Part shown: positions 33,375-42,841 of the stretch, one piece after another
How the letters are laid out: each line of letters begins with the position of its first letter
Position numbering within the stretch: position 1 is the stretch's first letter
Assembly (NCBI GenBank): GCA_029210625.1
Contig: JARGFU010000009.1
Location: forward strand, 1 to 64,000
DNA: 64,000 bases
DNA from: Deltaproteobacteria bacterium
Lineage (GTDB): Bacteria > Myxococcota > Myxococcia > SLRQ01
Direction: 5' to 3'
Notes under the pieces: generated by a model
The model's database searches: none
The model's input: only the letters and a program-made list of their open reading frames with translations
What the model was told of the DNA's origin: nothing
Position numbers and translations under genes: made by a program

Positions 33375-34157
33375 GTGAGAGCCATCCGGGCATTCTTCGA
33401 GTCCATCGGTCAGTCGGTGCTCTCCTTCTTCACGGCGCTGGGGGGGATGATGGTGCTCCTCTTCCAGACCCTGGTCTGGGGTCTCCGGCCGCCCTACCGC
33501 TTCTCCCTCTTCTTCATCCAGGCCGAGTCCATCGGCGTGGGCTCCCTCTTCATCGTCGCCCTGACCGGCCTCTTCACCGGGATGGTCTTCGCCGAGCAGT
33601 CGAACTACGCCTTCGGGCTCTTCGGCGCCGAGGGGCTGACCGGCGCGACCGTGACCCTCTCCCTGACCCGCGAGCTGGCGCCGGTGCTCACCGCCCTGAT
33701 GGTCACCGGCCGCTCGGGCTCCGCGATGACCTCCGAGCTGGGCACCATGCGGGTCACCGAGCAGATCGACGCGCTGACCACCATGGCGGTGAACCCGATC
33801 CAGTACCTGGTGGTGCCCCGGATCACGGCCTCCACCCTGATGGTGCCGGCCCTCTGCATGGTCTTCAACGTGGTCGGGGTGATGGGCGCCTACGGGGTGA
33901 GCGTGGTCTTCGGAGACCAGAGCGCCGGCACCTTCATCGACCGGACCCGCTACCTGGTCGACCCCATCGACATCTGGTCCGGCGCGGTGAAGGCCACGGT
34001 CTTCGGCACCGTCATCGCGCTCATCGCCTGTTTCCGGGGCTTCTACGCCTCGGGCGGCTCCAAGGGCGTGGGGCTGGCCACCACCGAGGCTGTGGTGACG
34101 GCCTCCATCGCCATCTTCATCCTCGACTACTTCCTCACGGTCCTCCTCCTCATCTGA
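33375..34157 (+). CDS. mlaE: MlaE-family ABC transporter permease
   Basis: The 260-residue integral membrane protein shows the MlaE signature. It has FTGMVFAEQ near residue 65, LTRELAPVLTALMVTGRSG near residue 95, and the EQIDAL segment that couples to the ATPase, with five to six membrane helices. It moves phospholipids between inner and outer membrane with MlaF and an MCE protein. The start is GTG at 33375. The stop shares a base with the mlaF ATG. Confidence 0.92.
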   Translation: MRAIRAFFESIGQSVLSFFTALGGMMVLLFQTLVWGLRPPYRFSLFFIQAESIGVGSLFIVALTGLFTGMVFAEQSNYAFGLFGAEGLTGATVTLSLTRELAPVLTALMVTGRSGSAMTSELGTMRVTEQIDALTTMAVNPIQYLVVPRITASTLMVPALCMVFNVVGVMGAYGVSVVFGDQSAGTFIDRTRYLVDPIDIWSGAVKATVFGTVIALIACFRGFYASGGSKGVGLATTEAVVTASIAIFILDYFLTVLLLI

Positions 34158-34906
34158 TGCCCGAGCCCATCATCAAGATCCGGGGGCTCCACAAGTCCTT
34201 CGGGGACCACCACGTCCTGCGGGGCATCGATCTCGACATCGAGGCCGGCAGCACCGTGGTCATCCTCGGGGCCTCGGGCTCGGGCAAGAGCGTGCTGATG
34301 AAGCACATGATCGGCCTGCTCAAGCCCGACGCGGGCCAGGTCCTCGTGGACGACGAGGACATCGTGAGCATGGGCGAGTCCGAGCTGCAGCGGGTCCGCC
34401 AGAAATTCGGGATGGTCTTCCAGCAGGCGGCCCTCTTCGACTCGATGACCGTCTTCGACAACGTCGCCTTCCCCCTGCGCGAGCACAGCCGCCGGATGCC
34501 CTTGAAGGAGGTCCGGGAGAGGGTCGCCGAGAAGCTCGGCGCCGTGGGCCTCTCGGGCACCGAGGAGAAGCTCCCCGCTGAGCTCTCCGGCGGCATGCGC
34601 AAGCGGGTCGGCCTGGCCCGGGGCCTGGTCCTCGATCCCAAGATCGTCCTCTACGACGAGCCCACCACGGGGCTCGATCCCCTCACCACCGACGACGTGG
34701 ACGAGATGATCCTCGAGGCCCGCAGGGCCTTCGAGGTGACCAGCGTGGTCATCTCCCACGACATCGCCAGCGCCTTCAAGGTGGCGACCAAGCTGGCGGT
34801 CCTCTACCATGGGGAAATCGTCGCGGAGGGGAACCAGGACGAGCTTCGAGCCCATCCTCATCCTCATGTGCAGGAGTTCCTGGGCATGTGGTTCTCCAAG
34901 AACTGA
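34157..34906 (+). CDS. mlaF: MlaF-family ABC transporter ATPase
   Basis: The 249-residue ATPase has Walker A GASGSGKSV near residue 38, the Q-loop FGMVFQQAALFDS, signature LSGGMRKRVGLARG, Walker B IVLYDEPTTGLDP, and the switch histidine in VISHD. It powers the MlaE permease in lipid transport. The translational overlap with mlaE and the next gene 7 bases on indicate one operon, mlaE-mlaF-MCE. Confidence 0.93.
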   Translation: MPEPIIKIRGLHKSFGDHHVLRGIDLDIEAGSTVVILGASGSGKSVLMKHMIGLLKPDAGQVLVDDEDIVSMGESELQRVRQKFGMVFQQAALFDSMTVFDNVAFPLREHSRRMPLKEVRERVAEKLGAVGLSGTEEKLPAELSGGMRKRVGLARGLVLDPKIVLYDEPTTGLDPLTTDDVDEMILEARRAFEVTSVVISHDIASAFKVATKLAVLYHGEIVAEGNQDELRAHPHPHVQEFLGMWFSKN

Positions 34907-34912
34907 CACCTC

Positions 34913-36499
34913 ATGCAGAACTTCTGGTCACCTCTGAAAGTCGGCGTGCTCACCATGGGCGCGCTCCTCTCGGCGATCTACGGCATCGCCGAGGTCACCA
35001 AGAGCAGCCTCGACGACGACAACTCCTACGTGCTCACCGCGGTCTTCCAGGACGCCTCGGGGCTGCGCACCAAGAGCAGGGTGCAGATCGCCGGCATCGA
35101 GGTCGGACAGATCGACGACATCCGCCTCGAGGGCGCCCGCGCGCGGGTCTACCTGCGGGTGAAGAAAGAGGTGCCCCTCCACCTCGACGCCCGCGCCAGC
35201 AAGCGCAGCGAGGGCTTCATCGGCGACATGGCCCTCGACCTCTGGCCGGGCACCGAGGAGAAGGCCCTGCTCAAGCACGGGGACGAGATCAAGGACGTGC
35301 AGTCCATGGGCGACATGGACAAGGTCTTCGCCACCCTCGGGGACATCACCGAGGACATCCAGGCGATGACCTCCAACCTGCGCACTCTGCTGGCCGGCGA
35401 CGACGTCGGCGGCATCAAGAAGATCATCGACGAGATCGGGCTGCTCACCGAGAAGGTGAACGAGACCATCGGCGAGGCCGGCGTGAAGCTGAAGGCCATC
35501 CTGGAGGACGTCCAGGAGGTCACCGGCTCGGTCACCGACCTGGCCGACGAGGAGGCGAAGACGGTCAGCAGCATCCTGCGCAACGTCGACAAGGTCTCCC
35601 AGCAGATGCAGGCCGCCATCACCGACGTCCAGGACGTCCTGGCCACGGTGAAGGGGGTCCTGGGGACCTCCGAGGGGGAGCTCAAGGACGGGGTCGCGGG
35701 CATCCGCCAGAGCCTGGAGAAGGTGAACAGCTCCCTCGATCAGCTCAACTCGGTCACCACCAAGATCTCGGAGGGGGAGGGGACCATCGGCCGGCTGGTC
35801 ACCGACGACACCCTCATCCGCGAGATCGAGGAGACCGTCGGCGACGCCGCCGACTTCGTGGACCGCCTGATCAAGCTGCAGACCGAGGTCAGCCTGATCT
35901 CCGAGTTCCACACCCGCAAGGCCTCCAGCCGGGAGAACCTGGGCCTGCGCCTGATCCCCTCCGAGGACAAGTGGTACGAGGTGGCGGTGATCAGCCCGCC
36001 CCGGGGCATCCCCGAGATCGAGACCACGGACGTCATCGACGAGAACGGGAACGTCACCACCACCACCCTGCGCACCACCAAGAACGGGATCGGCTTCAAC
36101 CTCCTCTTCGCCCACCGCTGGCGGATGAAGGGCTGGTCGGTCACCGGCAAGTTCGGCCTCATCGAGACCACCGGCGGCCTGGCCGGCGACGTGGGCCTCT
36201 TCGGGGAGCACCTGCGCCTCTCGGTGGAGGCCTACGAGTTCACCAGCATGGACCGGAAGTACCCGCGGGTGCGGGCCTTCGCCACGATCTCCTTCCTCAA
36301 GCACCTCTACGTCACCGGCGGCGTGGACGATGCCCTGAACCCCACGACCGTCGCTCCGGCGGGGGTCGGCGGGGCGGACGCGGCCCGCTTCGAGCTGCCC
36401 GCCCGGGACTTCTTCGTGGGCGCGGGCTTCTACTTCACCGACGAGGACCTCAAGACCCTCCTCACCACGGTCGGGGTCCCGAGCATGGGGGGTGGGTAG
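34913..36499 (+). CDS. MCE-domain protein with long helical region and C-terminal extension
   Basis: The protein starts with a single membrane anchor (VGVLTMGALLSAIYGIAEV) followed by an MCE domain (about residues 38-125, ASGLRTKSRVQIAGIEVGQI). Next come some 180 residues of helix/coiled coil with repeated TDVQ/NSVT pattern, and about 200 residues at the end that look beta-rich (WYEVAVISPP, LLFAHRWRMKGW, FAGAGFYFTDEDL-like). At 528 residues it is far longer than E. coli MlaD (183). The extension may form part of a tunnel across the periplasm or contact the outer membrane. It serves as the lipid shuttle partner of MlaE/MlaF. No mlaC or mlaB follows. Confidence 0.87.
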   Translation: MQNFWSPLKVGVLTMGALLSAIYGIAEVTKSSLDDDNSYVLTAVFQDASGLRTKSRVQIAGIEVGQIDDIRLEGARARVYLRVKKEVPLHLDARASKRSEGFIGDMALDLWPGTEEKALLKHGDEIKDVQSMGDMDKVFATLGDITEDIQAMTSNLRTLLAGDDVGGIKKIIDEIGLLTEKVNETIGEAGVKLKAILEDVQEVTGSVTDLADEEAKTVSSILRNVDKVSQQMQAAITDVQDVLATVKGVLGTSEGELKDGVAGIRQSLEKVNSSLDQLNSVTTKISEGEGTIGRLVTDDTLIREIEETVGDAADFVDRLIKLQTEVSLISEFHTRKASSRENLGLRLIPSEDKWYEVAVISPPRGIPEIETTDVIDENGNVTTTTLRTTKNGIGFNLLFAHRWRMKGWSVTGKFGLIETTGGLAGDVGLFGEHLRLSVEAYEFTSMDRKYPRVRAFATISFLKHLYVTGGVDDALNPTTVAPAGVGGADAARFELPARDFFVGAGFYFTDEDLKTLLTTVGVPSMGGG

Positions 36500-38616: not shown

Positions 38617-39084
38617 ATGCGTCAGAAGGCCATCAACGATATCGAGAGCCGTTGTCTCCGCACCGACATCCCGCGGATCCACCCGGGCGACACCGTCCGC
38701 GTCCACCTGCGCATCAGCGAGGGTGACAAGGAGCGCGTCCAGGTCTTCGAGGGCGTCGTCCTCCGCGTGAAGGGCCAGAACGCGCTCGCCACCTTCACCG
38801 TGCGCAAGGTCTCCTTCGGCATCGGCGTCGAGCGGATCTTCCCGCTCTACTCCCCGCGGATCGAGAAGGTGGAGATCGCCGCCTCCGGCCGCGTGCGCCG
38901 CGCTCGCCTCTACTACCTCCGCGCGCTCTCCGGGAAGAAGGCCCGCCTCAAGGGCACCCAGATCGGCGATCGCGGTCGCGAGCTGCCCGCCTCGCTCGTC
39001 TCCAGCTCGGACCCCGAGGCCAGCGTGGCCCCCGAGGCGGTCCCGGCCGCGGACGCCGCTGGCGACGAGGCCTCCGCCGAGTGA
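38617..39084 (+). CDS. rplS: 50S ribosomal protein L19
   Basis: L19 lies at the subunit interface. The first 115 residues match the family ([68 protein letters not shown]). An Ala/Glu/Pro-rich tail of about 40 residues extends beyond the usual length of 115-125. The gene ends the rpsP operon and has a strong hairpin behind it. Confidence 0.95.
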
Positions 39085-39187: not shown

Positions 39188-41278
39188 ATGCTGATTCACG
39201 AGATCGTACTTCAAGGGGTGCCGGGGAGCCCGGGGATGTCCCGGCTCACCATCGGGCGGGGGCTCACCGTGCTGGTGCCCACGCCGGGGCAGCCGCCGCT
39301 CCCGCTGGTCCGGCTGATCGCCCACATCCTCTTCGACGAGAGCGTGGAGCCGCCGCCGGATCTGGTCGCGCCCGGCGCCGAGGCCTCGCGCGCCGGCCTG
39401 ACCCTCCAGGACGCCGGCGGGCGGGTCTATCGCATCCTCCGGGATCTGAAGCGCGGGAGCGTTCAGCTCCTCGTCCTCGATCCCGCGACCCAGCAGTTCA
39501 ACCCGGTCTCCACCCGCGCCGCCGAGGTCGGGCAGTACCTCCGCTCGCAGGCGCAGGTGCCCGCGCTCGACCTGATCGAGGGGCTCTTCTCCCTCCAGGC
39601 CAGCGACTCGCCCTCGCGGCGCCCCCTGGCGGCGGCCGCCCCGGAGCCAGCCTCCGCGAGCTCGCCCTTCGGCGGGCTCGCCGGCCGCACGGCCACGCCG
39701 CCCGGCGGGCTGCCGGCCAAGCGCTCGCTGCCGCCCTCCGACGCCCACTTCCCGGGCTTCACGGGAGGGCTGGACGCGGGGCCCGCGGCGGGCGGCGGGA
39801 CCGGGCTGGGGATGAGCCGGGAGGAGCTCGAGAAGCGGATCGCCGAGCTGGAGGTCCAGGCCACGGCCCTCGCCGAGGTCGATCAGGTGCAGTTCGAGCT
39901 CGACGGGCTGCAGCAGAAGGTCGACGCCATCGACCAGCAGCTCTCCAGCGTGAAGGAGCTCGAGGCCCGCCTCGAGGAGCTCGACCGCCAGCTCGAGCGC
40001 TTCGGTGATCTCTCGGCGTTGCCCGAGGACTTCGGCTCCAAGGTGGCAGGCTTCGCCGCCTCCAAGGACCGCCTCGACCGGGCCCTGGAGCGGATCGAGG
40101 TCGAGCGGGGCTCCTTCGAGGAGCACGCCGCGGTGCCCGGAGAGCCCCTGCAGCGCAACCGCATCTTCCTGGGTGGCCTGGCCGGCGGGCTCGTCCCCTT
40201 CGGCCTCTCCATCGCGGTCGACGTGCGCAGCCTGGCGCTCCTCGCGCCCATCGGGCTGGGGGCCGCCGCCTTCGGGCTGCTGCGCCACTTCGACGGCCAG
40301 GAGGATCACGCCGGCCTGGGCCGCCGCATCGCGGCCCTGGACGAGCGGGCGGAGAAGGCCCGGCGCACCTTCGAGCTCGAGACCTCCCTCGTGCGCCGCA
40401 CCATGGAGCAGGTGGGCGCCGAGTCGCCCGAGGAGCTGGTGGCGCGGCTGGGCAAGCGCGAGCAGGCCCTCCAGGCCCGCCACGCGGCCGACGCGCAGCT
40501 CGCGGCGAAGCGAGACAGCCCCGAGGCCCAGGCGAGCATGGCGGAGCGGGGCCGGCACTCCGTGCGGATCGCCGAGCTCGAGGGCAAGCTCGCCGGCGCG
40601 GGCGGCTTCGTCCAGGACCCCGCGGATCTGCGCCGGGAGATCGAGGGCCTGAAGGCCGAGCTGGCCCGGATGGAGGGGGGCGGCGTCTCCCTCGAGCTCG
40701 GCGGACCGCCCACCGGCGGCTACGGGGCGACTCCCCCGGGGCAGCCCGGCTTCGGCAGCCTGGGCGGCGGCTCCTTCGGCGCGACCTCGCCCCTGATGGG
40801 AGGCCCCTCCGAGGCGCCCTCGGCCGAGGTGGCCGCGCCGCCGAACCCCGGGCCCGAGCTGCTCTCCCTGCTCTCGGACGTCCTCCACCGGCCCATCGAG
40901 GAGCTCCTCGGCGCGGTGGGGCCGCGACTCTCCCAGTACGTCGCCGCGCTCTCCCAGGGCCGCTGGCGAGGCGCCAGCTTCGTGGGCAAGGCCGACCTCC
41001 AGATCGACGAGGCGACCGGCCCCTCCCTCGACTGGGCCTCGCTCTCGCCCGCCGACCGCGACCTGGCCTACCTGGGCCTGCGGCTGACCGTCGCCGAGCT
41101 GGCGGTGCGCCAGAGCGCGACCCCCTTCGTCCTCGACGAGCCCCTCCTGGGATCGGCCCCCCAGGGGCTGGTCATGAAGATGCTCGCCGCCCTCGGCGGC
41201 GTCACCCAGATCCTCCTCCAGAGCTCGGACCCCGCCTGGCAGCAGGCGGCGACGACGGTCCACCCCCTGGGCAGCTGA
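39188..41278 (+). CDS. Degenerate SMC/YhaN-like coiled-coil ATPase homologue
   Basis: The ends of this 696-residue protein match the Rad50/YhaN-type ABC ATPase pattern. The N-terminus reads LTIGRGLTVLVPTPGQPP, where functional relatives carry a P-loop. The C-terminus reads LSPADRDLAYLGLRLTVAEL and FVLDEPLLGSAP, in place of the signature and Walker B segments. The lysine/serine of Walker A and the signature glycine are gone, so ATP binding is doubtful. The middle holds long coiled coils (about residues 215-300 and 375-500) split by two membrane-like segments near residue 330-360, a layout seen in YhaN-type proteins. The function is unknown. It is placed between rplS and rnhB, 2 bases before rnhB, which suggests co-expression. 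Confidence 0.68.
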   Translation: MLIHEIVLQGVPGSPGMSRLTIGRGLTVLVPTPGQPPLPLVRLIAHILFDESVEPPPDLVAPGAEASRAGLTLQDAGGRVYRILRDLKRGSVQLLVLDPATQQFNPVSTRAAEVGQYLRSQAQVPALDLIEGLFSLQASDSPSRRPLAAAAPEPASASSPFGGLAGRTATPPGGLPAKRSLPPSDAHFPGFTGGLDAGPAAGGGTGLGMSREELEKRIAELEVQATALAEVDQVQFELDGLQQKVDAIDQQLSSVKELEARLEELDRQLERFGDLSALPEDFGSKVAGFAASKDRLDRALERIEVERGSFEEHAAVPGEPLQRNRIFLGGLAGGLVPFGLSIAVDVRSLALLAPIGLGAAAFGLLRHFDGQEDHAGLGRRIAALDERAEKARRTFELETSLVRRTMEQVGAESPEELVARLGKREQALQARHAADAQLAAKRDSPEAQASMAERGRHSVRIAELEGKLAGAGGFVQDPADLRREIEGLKAELARMEGGGVSLELGGPPTGGYGATPPGQPGFGSLGGGSFGATSPLMGGPSEAPSAEVAAPPNPGPELLSLLSDVLHRPIEELLGAVGPRLSQYVAALSQGRWRGASFVGKADLQIDEATGPSLDWASLSPADRDLAYLGLRLTVAELAVRQSATPFVLDEPLLGSAPQGLVMKMLAALGGVTQILLQSSDPAWQQAATTVHPLGS

Positions 41279-41279
41279 G

Positions 41280-41996
41280 GTGGCGGTGGCGTCGGGCTCC
41301 CGGCAGATGGTCCTGCGCCTCGACGCGGCCCCGGGTGAGGAGGGGCCGGTCCTGGGCTGGGGCGAGCGCTGGGCTCGGAGCCGGGGCCTGGAGGCGATCT
41401 GCGGGGTCGACGAGGTGGGCCGGGGGCCCCTGGCCGGTCCGGTGGTGGCCGCCGCGGTGGTCCTGCCCCGGCCCCTGGAGGAGGCCCTCTGCGCGGAGGG
41501 GCTCGACGACTCCAAGAAGCTCGACGCCCGCCGCCGCGAGCGCCTCGACCGGCGGATCCGGGAGGGAGCGGCCTGGGGCCTCGCCGAGGTCGACGTCGAG
41601 ACCATCGATCGGATCAACATCCTCCAGGCGAGCCAGCTGGCCATGCGGCGGGCGATCGACGACCTGGCCGGGCGGCACCCCGGGGTCGAGCCCGCCTGCC
41701 TCCTGGTGGACGGTCACCTCGTCCTCGAGCCCTCTCCCCTGCCGCGGGCGGTCCAGCGCGCGGTGGTGAAGGGAGACAGCCGCTCGGTGGCCATCGCCGC
41801 GGCCTCGGTGGTGGCGAAGGTGCACCGGGACGCCCTGATGGTGACCCTGAACGGCCGCTACCCCGGCTACGATCTGGCGAGGAACAAGGGGTACCCGACC
41901 AAGGTGCATCGGGAGGCCCTGGCCGCCCTCGGGCCCACCCCGATCCACCGCCGCAGCTTCAAGGGCGTGCTCCCCGAGGAGGGGGCGAGCGAATGA
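41280..41996 (+). CDS. rnhB: Ribonuclease HII
   Basis: RNase HII removes ribonucleotides from DNA and RNA in hybrids. The 238-residue protein has the catalytic aspartates in GVDEVGRGPLAGP (near residue 43) and LLVDGHL (near residue 142). KGDSRSVAIAAASVVAKVHRD and the Tyr/Gly-rich NKGYPTKVH also match the family. About 35 extra residues precede the core. The start is GTG at 41280, 1 base after the previous stop. The stop overlaps rsmI by four bases. Confidence 0.94.
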   Translation: MAVASGSRQMVLRLDAAPGEEGPVLGWGERWARSRGLEAICGVDEVGRGPLAGPVVAAAVVLPRPLEEALCAEGLDDSKKLDARRRERLDRRIREGAAWGLAEVDVETIDRINILQASQLAMRRAIDDLAGRHPGVEPACLLVDGHLVLEPSPLPRAVQRAVVKGDSRSVAIAAASVVAKVHRDALMVTLNGRYPGYDLARNKGYPTKVHREALAALGPTPIHRRSFKGVLPEEGASE

Positions 41997-42841
41997 GCGA
42001 GGCCGGACAGGGGATGGGGACCCTCTACCTCCTGGGGACCCCCATCGGGCACCTCGGCGACGTCAGCGACCGCCTGCGGGAGGTGCTCGCCTCGGTCTCG
42101 GTGCTCGCCTGCGAGGACACCCGCACCACCCGCAAGCTGCTGGAGCGCTTCCAGATCAAGGGCCCGAAGCTGGTGGCCTTGCCCTCCCACGACGAGGCCC
42201 GCCGCGCCGAGCCCCTCCTCGAGGTGCTGCGGGAGGGCCGGGACGTGGGCCTGGTCTCGGAGGCGGGGATGCCGGTGGTCAGCGATCCCGGCGCCCTCCT
42301 GGTGGCCGGCGCGGAGGCCCTCGGCGCGCCCGTCGTGGTGGTGCCGGGCCCCAGCGCCGTGACGACCGCCCTGGCGGCGAGCGCCTTCCCGGGGGGCCGC
42401 TTCCACTTCCTCGGCTTCCTCCCCCGCAAGGGGAGCGATCGCCGCGAGCTGATCGCCGAGGCCGGCCGGTGGCCGGGGACCCTGGTGCTCTTCGAGGCGC
42501 CCGCCCGGCTGAAGAAGACCCTCGGCGATCTGGCCGAGGCCTGGGGTGGGTCGCGGCGGGCCGTGATCTGCCGGGAGCTGACCAAGCTCCACGAGGAGCA
42601 CCGGCGGGGCACCCTCGCCGAGCTCCGCGACGGGCTCGAGGAGAAGGTCCGCGGGGAGATCACCCTGGTCATCGCGCCCGCCGAGCGGGCCGAGGGACCC
42701 TCTCTCGGCCTCGAGGAGGCGCTGGAGCAGGTCCAGGCGAGGGTCGAGGGGGGTGAGCGGCTGAAGGATGCCTGCAAGGCCGTGGCGAGCGAGAGCGGGC
42801 TCTCGTCGCGAGAGCTCTACCAGGCGGCGCAGGCCCGCTGA
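41993..42841 (+). CDS. rsmI: 16S rRNA (cytidine-2'-O)-methyltransferase
   Basis: RsmI methylates C1402 of 16S rRNA. The 282-residue tetrapyrrole-methylase-fold protein has LYLLGTPIGHLGDVSDR, CEDTRTTRKLL, VSEAGMPVVSDPGALL, and VPGPSAVTTALAAS. FLGFLPRKGSDRR and EAPARLKKTL, all standard, follow. The ATG overlaps the rnhB stop. Confidence 0.95.
   Translation: MSEAGQGMGTLYLLGTPIGHLGDVSDRLREVLASVSVLACEDTRTTRKLLERFQIKGPKLVALPSHDEARRAEPLLEVLREGRDVGLVSEAGMPVVSDPGALLVAGAEALGAPVVVVPGPSAVTTALAASAFPGGRFHFLGFLPRKGSDRRELIAEAGRWPGTLVLFEAPARLKKTLGDLAEAWGGSRRAVICRELTKLHEEHRRGTLAELRDGLEEKVRGEITLVIAPAERAEGPSLGLEEALEQVQARVEGGERLKDACKAVASESGLSSRELYQAAQAR

Follow-up and report, generated by a model that had tools for sequence, protein, structure and literature searches.

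The 64-kb window analysed here, by which we mean the whole stretch from position 1 to 64,000 of contig JARGFU010000009.1, carries between rplS and rnhB a gene whose 696-aa product, hereafter X, is a P-loop-less protein resembling YhaN and Rad50. On balance, we lean towards reading X as a YhaN-derived membrane protein with the Rad50 fold, whose ATP site is gone and which most likely acts as a passive tether. The analysis supports homology, the predicted fold, the loss of ATP-site motifs, frequent synteny and purifying selection; membrane insertion and its topology, the absence of ATP binding, co-expression, the tether role and the ligand are inferred. Where members of the family need to be told apart, genomes are labelled G, loci or stretches L, and families f.

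Predicted head, ATP-site motifs and central hairpin

Single-sequence searches of X against Pfam, NCBIfam and the PDB return coiled-coil noise and no usable family match; orthologue profiles and a predicted fold are therefore needed. A profile of 20 P-loop-less members finds the C-lobes of Rad50 in the PDB (E 6.3e-10). The AlphaFold2 model of X, built on 24 sequences, has a mean predicted local distance difference test score (pLDDT) of 80.9 and a predicted template modelling score (pTM) of 0.48, and its best PDB matches with Foldseek include Rad50, SMC, JetC and Lamassu heads (top match 7zr1_D, E 5.6e-12; also 3qku_A, E 2.0e-8). By VIA comparison, the model aligns with P. furiosus Rad50 (4ncj_D) at Z 25.1 over 277 residues with a root-mean-square deviation (rmsd) of 2.9, and with SMC heads at Z of about 19-22; an orthologue of the sister family f11 that has a P-loop (L121) reaches Z 26.0 against 4ncj_D (279 residues, rmsd 3.0). 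The N- and C-ends of X are predicted to form a complete two-lobe Rad50/SMC head. The original prediction had likened these ends to Rad50/YhaN-type ATPases by pattern, which the profile match and the two-lobe head of the model bear out; the likeness can now be narrowed to YhaN over SbcC, as described below.

Between the lobes, the model passes from the N-lobe through a disordered linker, a coiled coil, a hydrophobic helical hairpin, a second coiled coil and a second disordered linker to the C-lobe (Table 1). By script measure the linkers of X are 65 and 55 residues long, and in 50 aligned members they range from 5 to 131 (linker 1) and from 2 to 355 (linker 2). These members are 535-1037 aa long, most of them 580-760 aa. 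In family f17 (L103, L105, and L110) the open frames span 754-1037 aa and linker 2 is very long (110-355, same measure).

The pattern [AG]xxxxGK[ST] does not occur anywhere in X, and the site at which Walker A is expected reads VPTPGQPPLPL. The N-lobe is readable in 156 of the 169 matching genomes, the other 13 (fragments or partial matches) being left out. A P-loop is present in nine of the 156, all belonging to f11 (G097-G105), and absent from all 147 non-f11 genomes. In an alignment of 50 members, the nine f11 proteins have their P-loop precisely where X reads VPTPGQPPLPL, and among the named loci it is found in 3/25, all three on f11 contigs. Whether every orthologue lacks the P-loop had been raised with the original prediction; outside f11 all 147 genomes read do, and within f11 none of the nine does. 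The Walker A stretch of the P-loop-less members varies by lineage.

Residues were tallied on 151 distinct rows, nine of f11 and 142 others. At the signature, where LSGG is expected, X has LSPADRD; the serine is replaced by P, A, E or L in all nine f11 rows and kept in 13 of the 142 others. S-x-G occurs in 2 of 111 distinct signature segments, namely the true YhaN of G110 and G164 (VSAG), which we judged to be out of register, and it is missing from all nine f11 rows despite their P-loop. The MSDG string of the Myxococcus proteins lies at the extreme C-terminus, away from the signature site. Control proteins have the P-loop in seven of seven cases and the S-x-G signature in five (L166 is cut off and L173 has none).

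Walker B is better preserved. Its first acid is D in 9/9 f11 rows; among the 142 others it is E in 81 rows and D in 50 (131/142 acidic). The second acid is D in 8/9 f11 rows, with 103 D and 13 E among the others. The pattern hh[DE][DE] is found at this site in 129 of the 146 genomes with a readable C-lobe. R82 is present in 9/9 f11 rows and 140/142 others, and Q674 in 9/9 and 133/142, the remaining nine being gaps. The motif claims of the original prediction (no Walker A, no signature glycine, and a retained DEP in the Walker B sequence LDEP) all stand, with the addition that the signature is missing even from the P-loop-bearing f11 proteins. From the loss of these motifs we infer that X no longer binds ATP.

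Hydropathy gives two hydrophobic segments in X, starting at 326 and 346 between the predicted arms, with QRNR ahead and R366 behind. Judging from hydropathy and the predicted helices, this hairpin is probably inserted in a membrane. No zinc hook CxxC is found at the arm tip: X has zero cysteines and the tip is hydrophobic. Across the 50 members, at the threshold used, the middle part has two hydrophobic segments in 28, one in 21 and none in one; 49 of the 50 thus have at least one. The proposed "tethered structural protein" fits the anatomy of the model. A YhaN-type protein of a Myxococcus-type genome (L168) possesses its own central hydrophobic hairpin (segments at 486 and 507); the full-length YhaN proteins of L165 and L167 have no such hairpin at that threshold. 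A 1161-aa Rad50-like protein with a P-loop and a central hydrophobic hairpin is encoded in the f11 genome G105 (L173, 2022-5507); its last 200 residues contain no S-x-G signature.

Table 1. Features of X and its neighbouring genes in the window
Feature	Residues	Coordinates	Strand	Evidence
X, 696 aa		39188..41278	+	ATG ORF (open reading frame), no internal stop; orthologues; predicted fold
N-terminal head lobe	1-148	39188..39631	+	pLDDT 89-96 in most ten-residue blocks; hhalign to YhaN N-lobes
Site of missing Walker A, VPTPGQPPLPL; P-loop here in f11 orthologues	30-40	39275..39307	+	alignment
Pro/Gly/Ala-rich linker 1, predicted disordered	149-210	39632..39817	+	pLDDT <50 at 149-160, 162-207
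Coiled-coil arm 1	211-314	39818..40129	+	predicted helices; coiled-coil family noise in searches
Putative membrane hairpin, arm tip	325-366	40160..40285	+	hydropathy; helices H325-344, H347-409
Coiled-coil arm 2	367-496	40286..40675	+	predicted model
Pro/Gly-rich linker 2, predicted disordered	497-553	40676..40846	+	pLDDT <50 at 498-534, 536-546
C-terminal head lobe	554-696	40847..41275	+	Rad50 profile match E 6.3e-10; YhaN 61 bits
Degenerate ABC signature LSPADRD (LSGG expected)	619-625	41042..41062	+	alignment
Retained Walker B LDEP	649-652	41132..41143	+	alignment
rplS (L19), upstream neighbour of X		38617..39084	+	Pfam Ribosomal_L19 E 2.9e-45
rnhB (RNase HII), downstream neighbour of X		41280..41996	+	Pfam RNase_HII E 7.4e-42
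rsmI (tetrapyrrole-methylase family), after rnhB		41993..42841	+	Pfam TP_methylase E 2.6e-31

Ancestry, selection and gene order

The ancestry of the head was assessed with hidden Markov models (HMMs) of each lobe, free of coiled coil, against a small reference set of three or four YhaN and two SbcC sequences. With the C-lobe HMM of the P-loop-less members, the YhaN-type proteins score 61.2, 61.2, and 52.2 bits and SbcC 7.8 and 2.9 (top shuffled sequence 8.7); with that of f11, they score 46.1, 44.2, and 42.9 and SbcC 14.6 and 8.0 (top shuffled 9.9). In hhalign, the C-lobe gives 98.5% to YhaN vs 27.9% to SbcC, and the N-lobe of the P-loop-less members 83.0% vs 5.1%. Judged by its C-lobe and these few references, X is a YhaN relative. 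Kinship with SbcC rather than YhaN was considered and ruled out on the C-lobe (61 vs 8 bits). X is not a member of AAA_27 (PF13514) by the Pfam cut-off, having no match to it up to E 1. Two of the nine f11 proteins are listed for AAA_27 at 15.3 and 17.3 bits, below the cut-off of 22, and five of the nine are above the curated cut-off of AAA_23 or AAA_29. At 4/4 YhaN loci examined (six were fetched), a metallophosphoesterase of the YhaO type (PF00149) lies directly ahead of YhaN; no YhaO-type nuclease stands beside X in the window, where its flanks are rplS and rnhB. A YhaO-YhaN-type pair is also found in the Myxococcus-type genome of L168 (798-2141 and 2138-5317), its YhaN-type protein having an intact P-loop.

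Purifying selection acts on the P-loop-less head. Ratios of nonsynonymous to synonymous substitution rates (dN/dS) were obtained with a Nei-Gojobori script for the 21 pairs of seven Myxococcus-type loci. They are 0.113-0.293 for the whole gene, 0.092-0.273 for the first 150 codons, 0.112-0.349 for the last 150 and 0.092-0.402 for the middle. In 21/21 pairs each of the two head ends has a lower dN than the middle; this does not always hold for the ratio dN/dS. Because the P-loop is kept in f11 alone (9/9 vs 0/147), the difference is an old, clade-wide one, not that of one decayed gene. Decay of a single gene, which would have undone the original prediction, can be rejected on this pattern together with the dN/dS values (0.11-0.29).

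The history of the losses was examined with three quick trees without bootstrap, the member tree of 49 sequences being made without the P-loop columns. In that tree f11 forms one clade (SH-aLRT 100) grouped with f1, the family of the window (97). A neighbour-gene tree of 39 rows keeps the f11 clade (100) and does not join f1 to it. A head tree rooted on YhaN/SbcC gives its root too little support for it to be placed (79) and puts f11 inside the P-loop-less lineages; several losses of the P-loop, or a regain, would therefore be needed. These trees do not distinguish a single loss from several losses or a regain, and we give no number. An earlier loss of the signature is no more than the most straightforward way to read f11, which has the P-loop and no signature.

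X is widespread. At E <= 0.001 it is matched in 93 of 97 near genomes, and 169/195 genomes of the phylum Myxococcota match a profile (A1) built from 20 members. The matches are only partial in four of the 169 (G106, G110, G168, and G170), that of G110 being a true YhaN. The window genome has one match only and no sibling copy. A pattern-limited contig scan gave 25 X loci, all with titles of Myxococcota type or "Deltaproteobacteria" except one Comamonas. The latter (L130, BNCN01000016.1, titled Comamonas sp. KCTC 72670) has an X gene of the Myxococcus type; mislabelling or contamination of this contig is probable. The match in G183 (L094) contains one internal TGA, yet a 705-aa open frame spans model positions 3-619.

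In the window, 104 bp separate the end of rplS from the start of X, and 1 bp its stop from the start of rnhB. The upstream genes include a KH-domain gene confirmed by Pfam and, presumably, rpsP, rimM, and trmD, names that we assign by gene order; the name rsmI in Table 1 is likewise our assignment, the TP_methylase family itself being given by Pfam. Further upstream (33375-36499), three consecutive ORFs resemble what we take to be a Mla-type permease, ATPase and MCE-domain protein.

The gene rplS adjoins X in 42/49 stretches: 18/19 in a first set (the miss is L044), 17/20 in L081-L100, which come mostly from distant lineages (misses L090 and L091, both contig ends, and L092), and 7/10 shorter stretches (misses L101, L102, and L104). 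The last three, from the f25 genomes G185, G186, and G184, have no rplS in the 1.3-1.5 kb upstream of X; in G183, also of f25, rplS does adjoin it, which suggests that X or rplS moved in the other three. The stable position among translation genes that had been suggested is borne out as a frequent arrangement and, with seven misses, not as a strict one. The gene rnhB stands behind X in the window, as it does in 13 of the 20 stretches L081-L100; it was not found next to X in any of the 19 first-set stretches, most of which have a gap of about 400 bp from X to rsmI. Genomes without X have an ORF in the stretch before rsmI which we take to be YraN-like. In the small genomes G006, G053, and G090 the order is rplS, this ORF, rsmI, with no X in between. 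These three (L259, L258, and L257, respectively) represent one genus with genomes of 2.1-2.7 Mb in the same family as the Myxococcus-type genomes. In G165, G166, and G171, also without X, rplS is followed directly by rnhB; in G087, neither X nor rplS was found.

Weighing the explanations

SMC and Rad50 proteins are known as ATPases in which ATP joins two heads and hydrolysis frees them. In the explanation we favour, the hairpin at the tip of the antiparallel coiled coil, the place of the Rad50 hook, would be inserted in the inner membrane, and the two arms of about 100 residues each would extend into the cytoplasm. The N- and C-lobes would combine as one head, carried in the window protein on flexible linkers that would uncouple it from the arms. 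Since the composite site has lost its two halves, Walker A and the signature, no ATP-driven head engagement would be left, and ligand binding by the head would not be switched by ATP. Such a layout suits a motor less well than a passive tether. Through co-expression, the position behind rplS would tie the amount of X to ribosome production. As ligand we slightly prefer nucleoid DNA, given the association of YhaN/Rad50 relatives with nucleases; a ribosome or a protein partner is also possible. More tentatively, and with less confidence than in the tether itself, one may imagine that the Myxococcota made an ATP-driven DNA machine of the YhaN/Rad50 type into an ATP-free tether between the inner membrane and the nucleoid (or ribosomes); the signature would have been lost first and the P-loop later, perhaps repeatedly, with f11 as an intermediate.

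Several findings should be weighed against this explanation. The low pTM means that the model does not define the head-to-arm geometry. The linkers are just a few residues long in L107, L108, L039, and L046, so that flexibility of the head is not shared by the whole family, and at the threshold used two hydrophobic segments are seen in just 28 of 50 members. At Walker B, 17/146 genomes fail hh[DE][DE], including G097 of f11 (LDN), and the motif is otherwise so largely kept that some nucleotide or metal binding could remain. As for ancestry, the N-lobe HMM of the P-loop-less members scores 15.4 bits to one YhaN-type protein (top shuffled 11.6) and the rest is noise. The N-lobe HMM of f11 gives 13.8 bits to the Rad50-like protein, 13.3 and 13.1 to SbcC and <=5.8 to YhaN (top shuffled 7.7), and its hhalign values (94.8% YhaN, 95.2% SbcC) show no preference. 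Because the f11 N-lobe favours neither, the evidence for kinship with YhaN comes from the C-lobe and the P-loop-less N-lobe. Finally, several sister lineages and three small genomes belonging to a single genus do without X, which is therefore not universally needed.

The kept Walker B acids, together with Q674 in every ungapped row (133/133 non-f11, 9/9 f11) and the P-loop of the f11 members, would also suit a protein that still depends on nucleotide, either by pairing in trans with an ATP-competent YhaN, SbcC or SMC head or by using Walker B with an unusual loop. A Myxococcus-type genome does have a hairpin-bearing YhaN with an intact P-loop (L168). We nevertheless consider this unlikely: the ATP of a partner head would require the signature, which is gone as well, and the Walker A stretch is not constant between lineages. 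The window genome, moreover, has a single X match and one marginal AAA_27 match (21.7 bits, in a 1286-aa frame), and AAA_27, matched in 13/14 control genomes, is not specific to YhaN. Rather unlikely, too, is a ribosome- or translation-linked membrane adaptor whose head places the ribosome or the nascent-chain machinery at the membrane. It would account for the location directly behind rplS in 42/49 stretches, often in the order rpsP-rimM-trmD-rplS; operon position is by itself weak evidence, however, and 7/49 stretches (two of them contig ends) have no rplS beside X. Genomes lacking X still have the cluster, and the YhaN relatives examined sit with a Mre11-type metallophosphoesterase, which points to DNA.

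We give little credence to X being the decaying remnant of a YhaN-like ATPase that survives by chance. The motif loss and the absence from small genomes would be expected of such a remnant, but the dN/dS values of 0.11-0.29, the lower dN of both head ends in 21/21 pairs and the frequent synteny are not, and no match listed has an internal stop except that of G183. Coiled coil is all that single-sequence searches detect, as if X were an ordinary coiled-coil membrane protein with a chance similarity to SMC ends; given a Rad50 fold at Z 25.1 and head-only profiles that still match with no coiled coil in them, this is so very unlikely that it deserves next to no weight.

Comparison with known systems

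No Pfam or NCBIfam family covers X above cut-off, and a search limited to open-licence full-text literature found no description of the family. A passive tether remains our preferred explanation and, if it is true, X may illustrate the conversion of an ATP-driven machine into a static tether. The family is widespread and selectively kept, and its head fold without an ATP site, alongside P-loop-bearing sisters, offers a series for studying an ATP-free function of the SMC head. In Myxococcus, X is an uncharacterised conserved protein accessible to deletion, tagging, and purification.

Rad50 hydrolyses ATP, has a zinc hook and pairs with Mre11. X shares with Rad50/SbcC the head fold (Z 25.1) and lobes at both ends of an antiparallel coiled coil; it differs in having a hydrophobic hairpin, no cysteine and no P-loop, and its C-lobe similarity to SbcC is noise. 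With SMC proteins and the archaeal ASRPs (coalescin, Sph), X shares the architecture of the superfamily. The passages of PMC9389158 on these proteins describe SMC-related proteins beyond the classic families, with Walker A and Walker B at the two ends of ASRPs and, in the great majority, a zinc hook; of 111 candidates, 13 were dropped there for high divergence or for having no Walker A, Walker B or signature (PMC9389158).

Lamassu LmuB and Wadjet JetC resemble X through a weak PADLOC match to LmuB (E 3.2e-5) and the Foldseek matches of the head fold. The LmuB match is confined to residues 211-275, which are coiled coil, and the neighbours of X are translation genes; membership of Lamassu or Wadjet was rejected on these two grounds, LmuA and LmuC not having been searched by model.

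The closest likeness is to YhaN. Homology in the C-lobe (61 bits) includes the aligned stretches RDQLFLALRLA / RDLAYLGLRLT and TQV, and both proteins have a split head and a long coiled coil, with a central hydrophobic hairpin in L168 as well. Unlike YhaN, X has neither Walker A nor signature and, in the window, no YhaO neighbour; its members are mostly 580-760 aa long vs 1059-1170 aa for three YhaN-type proteins, and they usually sit behind rplS.

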